This document shows positions 13,757 to 60,411 of a stretch of DNA of 64,000 bases, piece after piece. The position numbers and the translations under genes are program-made. The stretch spans positions 1,229,501 to 1,293,500 of the forward strand of contig NZ_OX241534.1 in assembly GCF_945836005.1 (NCBI RefSeq), in the 5' to 3' direction. This DNA comes from Candidatus Nitrosacidococcus sp. I8. GTDB taxonomy: Bacteria; Pseudomonadota; Gammaproteobacteria; Nitrosococcales; Nitrosococcaceae. The notes beneath the pieces were generated by a model that was not told the DNA's origin, ran no database searches, and was given only the letters and a program-made list of their open reading frames with translations. The number at the start of each line of letters is the position of its first letter. The stretch's first letter is position 1.

Positions 13757-13783
13757 GAAAAAAATAAGTATTTCAGAGAAAGA

Positions 13784-13821
13784 GTAAGGGTATTTGTTTA
13801 AATGATACCCTTACTTCATTT
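13784..13821 (+). terminator. Terminator of the gene at 13442
   Basis: GTAAGGGTAT (13784-13793) pairs perfectly with ATACCCTTAC (13805-13814) and is followed by TTCATTT. It may also serve the facing restriction gene, whose stop codon is at 13820-13822. Confidence 0.7.
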
Positions 13822-14575
13822 AATCTCCAAAAAGCATTACAGGATTAATTCTAAATTGTAGCATTTTAGCTATATCTCGCCCTTCATCTCCCCTTTTTCG
13901 TTGCATCGTAATGTTTCCAATTTTTAGACTACCTTGTTTGGTAATTTTCACAGGCCCATTGCCAAAGGTATTCATACATAGCATGATTAATTGATTTTAA
14001 AGCCCAGCGACTTTCCTCATTGATCACAAGTGCAACTAACATCCACCCTGCTGAAAATTTCCCCCTACCCTTTAAAAGATCTGAAACAATTAAAATTTAT
14101 CTTTATTAAAACAATCAATGATTTTATTTTGATCTGCTTCATCCATTTCATTTAAAAACATCCGTCTTTTATCTCGGCAGCCTGATTTTATCGGAGGAAT
14201 TTCACCAGTAAAGCATTTTAGAATTCTTGTAATATCTTCTGGCATTTCCCAAAGTGCAGTATATTTATCTATCCACCTCTTATCTATTTGGTTAAATCCC
14301 TGTGGGTTACTCACTAATTTTATGGATAAATTCTCTGCAGCAATGGCTTGTTTTAAATAAATGGTGATTTGTACTTGCACATCGGTTTTATAGCCATGCA
14401 ATTTTATTGCAATGACCTTTTCAATCTCTACTACGACATAGCCCATTATTCCTAGCCATGTTTGAGTATCTTCATCTTTTTGCCAATTGTTAAACTTTTG
14501 TACAATATCGTTTTCATTTTTAAATCCATTTTTTGCTGTTTGAGAGCCAAGAGCGATTAAATCTTTTTTAGCCAT
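13820..14575 (-). pseudogene. Type II restriction endonuclease, broken by two frameshifts
   Basis: The start is the ATG at 14575 (MAKKDLIALGSQ), overlapping the methyltransferase stop by 8 bases, so the two were translationally coupled. The first frame gives 161 residues, including HGYKTDVQVQI and GFNQIDKRWIDKYTALW, and stops at 14090. Sense continues in another frame from about 14096 (ILIVSDLLKGRGKFSAGWML) to about 13985, then returns to the first frame (TFGNGPVKITKQGSLKIGN, TMQRKRGDEGRDIAKMLQF, closing FGD) and ends at 13820. The last block (IxMQRKxGDxGR...MLQFxINP) is typical of the C-terminal end of several type II nucleases. A lost A in the AAA run at 14096-14098 and an extra base near 13971-13985 explain both shifts. 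The whole would be about 250 residues. Its recognition site cannot be told from sequence. Confidence 0.8.
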
Positions 14576-15536
14576 AATAGCGAGTATAGTTAAGTACACT
14601 ACAACCAATAGCTTCTATAACGCTCACTGTCATGGCATTGCCTGCTTGGCTTAGTAAACGGCTATCTGAAATTTTTCCTTTTACTCTTTCAGCCAAATAT
14701 TTTGGAATCCCTTGTAGTAATAAGGACTCAAAGCCAGATAGTTTTCTCAATTTTCCTTCTCGAGTGTATAAAATGCCATGGCGCCCTGTGCGGAGTGTGG
14801 GTATTTTGTTCTTATATAACCTTAAATCAGATTGGCGGGTGTCTAAAACTAGATAATCCTCTGAGCATAGTTGCTCAATAGTGAATAACCCTTGATTGTA
14901 TTTATTATTTAAATACTTTAAGAAGGTTTGATAGGTTTTATTTTTTTCATTAAGCTCTATCTCTATGCCATCGATTAAATAATTTCGTAAATTAGGTGAA
15001 TCGATTGGCTCTGCCCATGAAAACAATTGATGGGTTACCAAGTCTTTTCTAATACCTATTAAATAAATCCGCTCTCGCATTTGTGGGATACCATAATCAA
15101 TGCTATTGAGCACTTGGTGATAAACTTGGTAACCGGCTTGATTGAGATCATTTAAAATGATAGTGAACGTTTTCCCCCTATCGTGGTTCATCAATCCTTT
15201 TACATTTTCTAAAATAAAATAGGGCAAATGCTTTGCTTTCATGATATTAATCAGACCATAAATGATTTGCCCTCGATCATCTTCTATCCCTTTTCGTTGC
15301 CCCACAATGGAAAAAGACTGGCATGGAAATCCTGCAATCATCAGCTCAAAGTCAGGTAAATCATTGGGGTTAATTTCCATTAAATCCCCGTAATTTTTTT
15401 CTGCCTGCCCAAAAAATGCTTGATAAGTATATTCTGAATCTATATCTATCTCAGAAAAACCGATACATTGCAGTCCTATATTTTCAAGACCCATACGCCC
15501 TGTACCAATTCCTGCACAAAAATCAAAAAATCTCAT
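14568..15536 (-). CDS. DNA (cytosine-5-)-methyltransferase of a type II R-M system
   Basis: This intact 322-residue C5-cytosine methyltransferase protects or marks its DNA site using SAM. Motifs in order: I, FDFCAGIGTGRMGLE at 3-17; IV, AGFPCQSFSIVGQRKG near 88-103 with the catalytic PCQ Cys; VI, ENVKGL; VIII, QMRERIYLIGI; a target-recognition region around 200-275 containing PTLRTGRHGILY; IX/X, FESLLLQGIP and SQAGNAMTVSVIEAIG. The start ATG at 15536 is only three codons before motif I, as is usual. Its cognate nuclease gene follows with an 8-base overlap and is broken, so this enzyme now probably acts as an orphan. The closest specificity is unknown. Confidence 0.92.
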   Translation of the reverse strand: MRFFDFCAGIGTGRMGLENIGLQCIGFSEIDIDSEYTYQAFFGQAEKNYGDLMEINPNDLPDFELMIAGFPCQSFSIVGQRKGIEDDRGQIIYGLINIMKAKHLPYFILENVKGLMNHDRGKTFTIILNDLNQAGYQVYHQVLNSIDYGIPQMRERIYLIGIRKDLVTHQLFSWAEPIDSPNLRNYLIDGIEIELNEKNKTYQTFLKYLNNKYNQGLFTIEQLCSEDYLVLDTRQSDLRLYKNKIPTLRTGRHGILYTREGKLRKLSGFESLLLQGIPKYLAERVKGKISDSRLLSQAGNAMTVSVIEAIGCSVLNYTRYYG

Positions 15537-15614
15537 GCTATCTATGATAGTTTTTAAGCGTTAAATGGGAAACAGAAAAGTAAGGTGGGGTGGGGGTAAG
15601 TGTCTTATAAGGCT

Positions 15615-15975
15615 TGGTGGAGGCGGCGGGAATTGAACCCGCGTCCGTAAATCCTCCGCCTTTGGTTCTACATGCTTATCCCAATCTTTAAATTTAACTA
15701 GACTACAGCCCGATGGGCAAGGAAATAGCTAGCGATCCTAGTAAAGGTTTAGCAGGTTAGCCCTAGGCTACCTTCCTGCGATCTTGTGAGTATGACGCCT
15801 GAACTCTGAACGCACAAGCACGGCTCCAGCCAGACGGCACCCTACTGGGTATTAAGCAGCGAGTGCGAAGTTGTCGTCGTTGGCAACTATAATTTTTGCA
15901 GGGTGATTAACGAGGGCTCTGCACCTCGACATGCCCCTCAGGTTTTGCGATCCACGTCGAAGCCAGGTCGCCCCC
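15615..15975 (-). ncRNA. ssrA: tmRNA (ssrA)
   Basis: The 5' end GGGGGCG pairs with CGCCTCC just before A-CCA at the 3' end, forming the tRNA-like acceptor. The T-arm GCGGGTTCAATTCCCGC is present. The tag reading frame at 15852-15884 (minus) encodes ANDDNFALAA followed by TAA, a normal gammaproteobacterial proteolysis tag. The length is 361 bases, one-piece. It rescues stalled ribosomes together with SmpB, whose gene lies 486 bases upstream. Confidence 0.96.
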
Positions 15976-58789: not shown

Positions 58790-59077
58790 AAATAAACAAC
58801 CTCTATACAGATAAAATCGGGTTAAAAATAAAAAACTTATTTTACCTTATATTAGTAATGAGCTGAATTGAAGTTCTTAGGAGTTTGAAGAAAAAAATAT
58901 ATAAGTTTAATATCTTGGATAAGTCCTAAGCTAGGGTAATCTTGTTTTTAAGGTCCTGCTAATCTTTATTGGTATACCCTCTCACAAATATTTATTCATG
59001 CAAAAAGACATAATAGAATATCTCTATATAAGGATAAATATAGAGAAGAGTAATCATCCTATATGGAAAAGAATATA

Positions 59078-59242
59078 CTAGCTTAGTTTAATAGTGCCCC
59101 GCTGAAGTAGAGCAGCTGATCCAAATAGCACTATACTCAAAAGGATATTTACAGTGGACTCTGAAAACACAGCATCAGTAGTAAAAAAATATGCTGTGAC
59201 AAGGACCAACATTATAACAATAAGTCTAATAATTGAATGCAT
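59078..59242 (-). CDS. Possible 54-residue two-helix membrane protein
   Basis: Frame MHSIIRLIVIMLVLVTAYFF..., then a polar loop TDAVFSESTV and a second hydrophobic helix ILLSIVLFGSAALLQ, ending GTIKLS. Two helices with a short loop and a basic start are typical of small membrane proteins. A GTGGGG box precedes the ATG by about 6 bases. I do not recognise it. It lies in an otherwise empty stretch between ppiD and the tRNA genes. Confidence 0.42.
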   Translation of the reverse strand: MHSIIRLIVIMLVLVTAYFFTTDAVFSESTVNILLSIVLFGSAALLQRGTIKLS

Positions 59243-59549
59243 AAAAACCCCACTCGACTAATTTGTATATAGCGAATAAAGCAAAATTTATGCCATATAA
59301 AGATATCAATTAGTTAGTATTAGTTTATATCCTATTTAGGTCAGTTTATGTGATTATGTGACAAATATTGTCGAATTAGTATAGCTGATAAAAATGATAT
59401 GAATTATATTAGGGTAACGAAGATTATTATTGAATTGTGTAAAGAAATCAAAGCTAGTTGAAAGGTTTTAACTTAAAGTAAATAAAGACATTATGAAATT
59501 TTTTCTAAGGTGGAAAGGAATTTAAGCTGAAATTACATAGGATATATAA
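59243..59549. other. AT-rich spacer without recognisable gene
   Basis: These 307 bases lie between two tiny opposing ORFs. No hairpin, repeat or ORF that I can support is present; they probably carry the divergent promoters. The 288 bases at 58790-59077 next to ppiD also hold nothing I can name. Confidence 0.4.
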
Positions 59550-59699
59550 ATGAATAATACAAATATTTTTTTAATATGCTTCACTACTATTTTTATTCTA
59601 TCCATGATAATAATCGGGATAGTTACACCTATCCGAGTTAATGTTGCATTTCTTATGCCCCACTTTAAGTGGGTATATATAAATCAGGCGCATCATTAA
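59550..59699 (+). CDS. Possible 49-residue small membrane protein
   Basis: Frame MNNTNIFLICFTTIFILSMI..., a hydrophobic helix to about residue 25, then IRVNVAFLMPHFKWVY and a closing QAHH. An AGGA box lies about 9 bases upstream. It ends 54 bases before the convergent tRNA-Asp gene. No family is recognised, and chance is possible in such AT-rich DNA. Confidence 0.3.
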   Translation: MNNTNIFLICFTTIFILSMIIIGIVTPIRVNVAFLMPHFKWVYINQAHH

Positions 59700-59752
59700 T
59701 GAAAATTAATAATATACTAGCGGAGGGGTTATCAGAGGAAACAAGTATTAAG

Positions 59753-59829
59753 TGGCGGAGCGGACGGGACTCGAACCCGCGACCTCCGGCGTGACAGGCC
59801 AGCATTCTAACCAGCTGAACTACCGCTCC
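59753..59829 (-). tRNA. tRNA-Asp (anticodon GUC)
   Basis: Minus strand: GGAGCGG acceptor with CCGCTCC, anticodon loop CTGTCAC (GTC), T-arm GCGGG TTCGAGT CCCGT, discriminator G, encoded CCA. It is 77 bases and almost identical in form to E. coli tRNA-Asp. Confidence 0.96.
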
Positions 59830-59842
59830 GCAAGAAAATACA

Positions 59843-59918
59843 TGGTGGGCGCTGAGGGGATCGAACCCCCGACTTTCGCCTTGTAAGGGCGACGCTCTCC
59901 CAGCTGAGCTAAGCGCCC
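59843..59918 (-). tRNA. tRNA-Val (anticodon UAC)
   Basis: Minus strand: acceptor GGGCGCT/AGCGCCC, anticodon loop CTTACAA (TAC), T-arm GGGGG TTCGATC CCCTC, encoded CCA; 76 bases. It lies 13 bases upstream of tRNA-Asp and 13 bases after hupB, so it is likely a shared transcript. Confidence 0.96.
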
Positions 59919-59931
59919 GATAACTTACCGC

Positions 59932-60204
59932 TTAGTTTACGGCATCTTTAAGAGTTTTTCCAGCTTTAAATACAGGATTTTTTGATGCTTTAATTTTTAT
60001 CTCTTCTCCCGTTTGCGGATTACGTCCTGTGCGGGCTGCTCTATCTCTAACTGAGAAAGTACCAAACCCAATAAGAACAACTTGTTCCCCTCGACTAAGG
60101 GTATCTGTAATTGCTTCTATGATAGAATCAACAACACGGGCAGTTTCTGTCTTTTTTAAATCACCTTTTTTTGAAATTGCATCAATAAGTTCTGTTTTAT
60201 TCAT
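59932..60204 (-). CDS. hupB: DNA-binding protein HU-beta
   Basis: This 90-residue nucleoid protein begins [20 protein letters not shown] and has the arm region [44 protein letters not shown], the HU/IHF signature with Pro at the arm tip. A strong GGGGG box precedes the ATG. It is followed by tRNA-Val and tRNA-Asp in the same direction. Confidence 0.96.
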
Positions 60205-60411
60205 AATATCCCCCTTTCCTTTTTATATACAATTTAAGTAGGTAGTTTTTATTTTGTGTAACATAACAGCCTTTATATCAGGGGATTCAAGGTGGGTCAA
60301 GCTACTTAGCCCTATTTTTCTATACTTTAGCCAAAAATATTGGCTATTAAAGTTAGAATAATATTGAAATGAATATTTATCCTCAAAATACAACAAAGAT
60401 TAATATTAAAA

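Follow-up and report, generated by a model that had tools for sequence, protein, structure and literature searches.

The window, a stretch of 64,000 nucleotides of Candidatus Nitrosacidococcus sp. I8 (NZ_OX241534.1, positions 1,229,501 to 1,293,500), carries on its minus strand the genes of a type II restriction-modification (R-M) system, located downstream of the tmRNA gene ssrA. The original prediction was of a type II system in which the C5 methyltransferase is complete and the nuclease interrupted by two offsetting frame changes, and homology searches supported this description. The features of the locus are as follows.

15615..15975, minus strand: tmRNA gene ssrA (ARAGORN)
14568..15536, minus strand: C5 DNA methyltransferase, 322 aa, complete, predicted site GCGC (PF00145, TIGR00675, PDB)
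14090..14575, minus strand: nuclease piece 1, 161 aa and stop, corresponding to R.HinP1I residues 2-156 (phmmer to 1ynm, PF11463, alignment)
13968..14096, minus strand: nuclease piece 2, in the other frame, corresponding to R.HinP1I residues 158-200 (phmmer to 1ynm)
13820..13966, minus strand: nuclease piece 3, in the first frame again, corresponding to R.HinP1I residues 198-245 (phmmer to 1ynm, PF11463)

Methyltransferase and nuclease genes

The methyltransferase was matched in one frame (14568-15536) to positions 1-321 of the 324 positions of PF00145 (E 3.8e-66) and was also matched by TIGR00675 (E 3e-78). DFCAGIG, GFPCQSFS, FILENV, QMRERI and QAGNAM, which we take to be motifs of the C5 methyltransferase family, were all found by eye, in keeping with the earlier claim that the enzyme has all its motifs. 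The best PDB match was M.HhaI (E 2.9e-44), aligned over residues 1-194; the later part of the protein with the target-recognition region lies outside this alignment, and the specificity was taken from the nuclease partner instead. As that partner is HinP1I-type, and HinP1I is assumed here to cut at GCGC, the site of the methyltransferase would likewise be GCGC. The methyltransferase frame overlaps by 8 bases with the nuclease frame on the same minus strand, when the latter is started at the ATG at 14575; this start was picked by homology, whereas the mechanical list of open reading frames begins at a TTG at 14608.

Translation of the nuclease from this ATG ends at a stop at 14090-14092, where it had been predicted to end, after 161 aa whose last residues are NKDKF. 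Homology continues in a second frame from ~14096 to ~13968, and from ~13966 it is again found in the first frame, which stops at 13820-13822. Worked out from the frames, the two changes were placed at ~14094-14100 and ~13964-13971. The former matches the site originally proposed (14096-14098), whereas the latter lies a few bases off the proposed 13971-13985. Read through both changes, the nuclease has ~250 aa, the length that had been anticipated for the restored protein. HinP1I itself has 247, and each of the five nearest relatives (L011-L015) has 250 when counted from the aligned start. The uninterrupted open frame of ~247 aa that is a trait of the R.HinP1I family is absent, with three pieces in two frames in its stead; of the 64 columns in which 95% or more of the family agree, 21 fall in the missing last third of the protein.

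It had been proposed that a single protein should be sought across the three stretches, and R.HinP1I (PDB 1ynm) matched all three colinearly, with an identity of 42-45% and phmmer E values of 5.6e-48, 6.5e-8 and 1.5e-10 for pieces 1, 2 and 3. The two outer pieces matched PF11463 (R-HINP1I) at positions 1-120 (E 4.6e-37) and 160-208 (E 5.7e-17) of 208, and both matched PDLC03500, of which positions 2-246 of 247 are covered when the stretch is read through its stops. With respect to the active site, which we take to consist of D62, Q81 and K83 in HinP1I, the residues aligned with all three positions lie in piece 1. The Asp and Lys are kept and are invariant in 76/76 family members. Apart from its two frame changes, the window nuclease differs from R.HinP1I in carrying Ser for Gln at position 81. 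This was considered as a third, catalytic lesion and rejected, since Ser occurs naturally in 21/76 family members (Gln in 55/76). On homology and frame structure, the nuclease gene is a broken gene of the R.HinP1I family and not a working member; nuclease activity would therewith be lost, and only the methyltransferase of this type II system (predicted GCGC) looks able to work.

Related loci and the ssrA flank

Related loci were drawn from the best 80 of 347 genome-contig relatives, 2 viral contigs and 3 plasmid records, a sample of 85 loci which is biased to close relatives and consists mostly of MAGs. The nuclease frame was at least 240 aa long in 75 of the 85, cut by the contig end in 2 and interrupted in 8. 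A C5 methyltransferase frame of at least 346 aa was present at five of the 8 interrupted loci (L008, L016, L028, L070 and L080); the combination of broken nuclease and open methyltransferase frame is not unique to the window, and some cases may be assembly errors. At 15/85 loci a methyltransferase 52-71% identical to the window's stood directly before a full-length HinP1I-type nuclease.

The methyltransferases found beside HinP1I-type nucleases were of several kinds: besides the 15 C5 enzymes near the window's there were 34 distant C5 enzymes and 29 which resemble two methyltransferases matching PF01555 (N4/N6 type), while at 7 loci none was found. The HinP1I-type nuclease seems to have swapped methyltransferase partners.

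The nearest relatives, L011-L015, were 71-77% identical over piece 1; four are titled Patescibacteria or Wolfebacteria and L011 only 'bacterium'. Their systems resemble the window's in having the methyltransferase followed by the nuclease in overlapping or abutting frames, with identities to the window of 73-77% for the nuclease and 60-71% for the methyltransferase. In contrast to the window, the nuclease frame was uninterrupted in 5/5. In a nuclease tree from which interrupted loci were left out, the window grouped with these five with support of 100/93. The nuclease family was absent from 94 other genomes (5 of the same family, 57 of the order and 32 of the class), and at E <= 1e-40 no methyltransferase match was found among 95 genomes but the window's own. 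Because four of its five nearest kin are titled Patescibacteria or Wolfebacteria while the 94 genomes of the family, order and class have no match, the system was probably acquired horizontally. The nuclease piece found no match among phage records and three among plasmid records.

Between the ssrA 3' end and the start of the methyltransferase lie 78 bases. The same ssrA flank (window 13760-15615) carries other defence genes in 5/5 same-family genomes (L107-L111): HerA and SIR2 in G001, type I HsdR in G003, and in G002, G004 and G005 type I R-M genes, which in G002 and G004 were assigned through HsdM frames that look near-identical by eye. As G002-G005 belong to one genus, the pattern covers two genera besides the window's. 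A phage-type integrase was found at the flank, full length in G004 and incomplete in G002 and G005, whereas none was present in the flank stretch read in G001 and G003. A passage in PMC3146451 describes ssrA as a known integration site. The window itself held no match to the G004 integrase and no exact repeat of 12 bases or more of the ssrA 3' end, nor did the repeat search list any. The position beside ssrA and the islands of the relatives are the only hints of an ssrA-integrated island, for which an integrase and a direct repeat of the ssrA end would be expected.

Scans for promoter consensus sequences were at chance level (9 vs 8.4), and terminator-like sites, every one of them on the plus strand, numbered 3 vs 1.5 (sd 1.3). 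Elsewhere in the window, ~1.5 kb at 58847-60372 lies outside the kept open frames of at least 120 codons and holds tRNA-Asp and tRNA-Val.

GCGC usage and other R-M loci of the genome

Tetramers were counted in 21 stretches comprising 420 kb of the 1.85 Mb genome and compared with a second-order Markov expectation, using 360 kb of G001 and 100 kb of each other genome for comparison. GCGC was depleted in the sampled genome, with an observed/expected ratio of 0.54 (0.48-0.59), which ranks it third from the bottom among 256 tetramers; the five same-family genomes gave 1.05, 1.03, 1.01, 1.06 and 0.97, and for two genomes of its order the ratios were 0.84 and 0.83. With A/T flanks the ratio was 0.51 here, while G001 gave 1.15 and G002-G005 taken together 1.07. 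The control of equal composition, CCGG, stood at 0.89 here vs 0.88-1.00 in the five same-family genomes. Since GCGC is at 0.54 here and at 0.97-1.06 in those five, the lineage probably harboured an active GCGC system over a long period. The shortage also lends indirect support to GCGC as the predicted cleavage site of the nuclease. Rusinov et al. 2015 (PMC4687349) report that the longer orthodox type II systems have lived, the more their sites are avoided, and that such avoidance can be a trace of lost systems. An earlier GCGC system belonging to a different family may have caused the depletion.

Several observations run against reading the depletion as the mark of a GCGC system. TCGA, another CG tetramer, was also lower (0.89 here vs 1.04-1.15 in the five), and the G+C content was 0.37 here vs 0.42-0.53 in the compared genomes. 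CGCG (0.26) and GGCC (0.44) were depleted more than GCGC; the strong depletion of CGCG is without a visible partner system and counts against the depletion argument, whereas that of GGCC fits a HaeIII-type remnant in the genome. CGCG was the lowest of all 256 tetramers, and with A/T flanks its ratio fell to 0.10 (18 vs 172) in the 420-424 kb sampled.

Other C5 R-M loci of the genome were found in different states. At L113 (1145500-1151500 of the genome) a HaeIII-type nuclease (E 6.3e-82) accompanies a methyltransferase in two frames, and at L114 (415000-420500) both the BsaWI-like nuclease and the C5 methyltransferase are fragmentary. An NgoFVII-type nuclease and its C5 methyltransferase have both frames open; GCGGC, presumably one form of the NgoFVII site, was not depleted here (0.99). 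Three of the four C5 R-M loci of the genome, the window locus included, are thus broken in one or both genes, which fits a general turnover of R-M systems. The N4/N6 methyltransferase family gave five matches in the genome.

Deamination of methylated GCGC was considered as a contributor to the shortage. GTGC, the product when the first C is deaminated, stood at 1.17 (1.14-1.20) here vs 0.92-1.01 in the five same-family genomes; GCGT, the product for the second C, was at 1.08 here, while the five ranged over 0.88-1.00 and two genomes of the same order over 1.08-1.13. The GTGC excess lends weak support to methylation, because unrelated words were up too (here vs the five: GGGC 1.05 vs 0.90-0.92, GTCC 1.02 vs 0.86-0.95, GAGC 0.97 vs 0.85-0.94) and GTGC ranked only 234th of 256. 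No match to Vsr was found in the genome. It is conceivable, if rather doubtful, that the lone methyltransferase methylates GCGC genome-wide and, with no Vsr found, turns GCGC into GTGC/GCAC by deamination. Were this so, the relic would be a slow site-specific mutator, and the depletion would be partly methyltransferase-driven rather than nuclease-driven.

Probable loss of the nuclease and state of the methyltransferase

The reading that we regard as probable is of a HinP1I-type system, long active, in which the nuclease has been broken and the methyltransferase is complete. A type II system with a predicted GCGC site would have arrived, probably horizontally, downstream of ssrA, and a GCGC system, most simply the window's own, would have acted long enough to deplete GCGC. 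The nuclease would then have been lost by two mutually offsetting frame changes, with translation now expected to halt after 161 of ~250 residues. What remains would be a C5 methyltransferase, complete but deprived of a working partner, which presumably still marks GCGC but no longer defends.

With respect to the age of the breaks, the window nuclease was 74.8-76.8% identical to those of L011, L012 and L014 and the methyltransferase 70.7-71.3%; for L013 and L015 the values were 74.4 and 73.2% for the nuclease and 61.4 and 59.9% for the methyltransferase. The nuclease deviates at 4/64 of the columns in which 95% or more of the family agree, whereas in a leave-one-out comparison 70/76 relatives deviated at 2 or fewer conserved columns and 6 at 3 to 13. 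When the 16 loci sharing this methyltransferase type (the window among them) were compared, the window deviated at 4/61 invariant columns in the nuclease and at 4/107 in the methyltransferase (Fisher p 0.46, a test of small power). Several full-length nucleases deviated more than the window's (L084, 14/71; L010, 12/69; L071, 5/62). Long decay of the nuclease was rejected, there being no clear excess of deviations over the methyltransferase at this small power. The window branch in the nuclease tree was 0.37, compared with 0.006-0.2 for its sisters, and this long branch, together with 4 deviations, more than in most intact relatives, could mean a longer decay. On balance the breaks look recent, because the residues of the nuclease are not clearly more eroded than those of the methyltransferase.

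This bears on the suggestion that the methyltransferase has been retained by selection, either for gene regulation or as a shield against GCGC-cutting nucleases that mobile elements carry. A complete frame with conserved motifs is what retention would leave, and the open methyltransferase frames at 5/8 of the interrupted related loci point the same way, although those loci are mostly on MAG contigs and may carry errors. If the breaks are recent, however, an intact neighbour is expected anyway: the methyltransferase may simply have had no time to decay, and its open frame is therefore no proof of retention for regulation or anti-restriction. Nor is there a second HinP1I-type nuclease that would need it, as no match to the model was found elsewhere in the genome. 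We consider retention unlikely, and an open methyltransferase frame next to a freshly broken nuclease to be weak evidence of a new role.

Assembly errors at both frame changes, with the system in fact intact, are less likely still. The good preservation of the nuclease (60/64 conserved columns) would be explained, as would the presence of merely two offsetting changes ~130 bases apart, and two further C5 R-M loci of this genome look broken as well. Neither change, however, lies at a run of more than 4 identical bases, and the genome is a single contig with a completeness of 98.55%. In the window 416 homopolymer runs at least 5 bases long sit inside 57 open frames (56.8 kb), an argument against assembly errors which is weakened in that these are open frames rather than checked genes and one of them is piece 1 of the broken nuclease.

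The 161-aa product could keep some activity, as the residues aligned with D62 and K83 are present and the Ser at position 81 is a natural one. That it is a working or regulatory protein is nevertheless very improbable, since the last third is gone with its 21 conserved columns and full length is kept in 75/85 related loci. Production of the full nuclease by programmed frameshifting, for which the offsetting of the two changes could be cited, is scarcely credible, as the gene is read in a single frame in the five nearest relatives and two programmed shifts would have to occur within one gene.

The HinP1I-type remnant resembles solitary (orphan) methyltransferases in having no working partner beside it, but differs from them in that its broken partner is still attached and can be recognised. 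A passage in Oliveira et al. 2014 (PMC4176335) states that solitary methyltransferase genes rarely arise by such degradation. The locus likely shows an R-M system caught shortly after nuclease loss, in which the partner is readable, the methyltransferase complete and the predicted site depleted. The decay is of a known, ordinary kind, and the GCGC shortage in the sampled genome makes it clearer.

Among the related loci, an interrupted nuclease was also found on the Spiroplasma citri plasmid pSciBLHMB-3 (L008), while a second plasmid of the same strain (L009) carries a full-length one; each of the two nucleases adjoins a methyltransferase.
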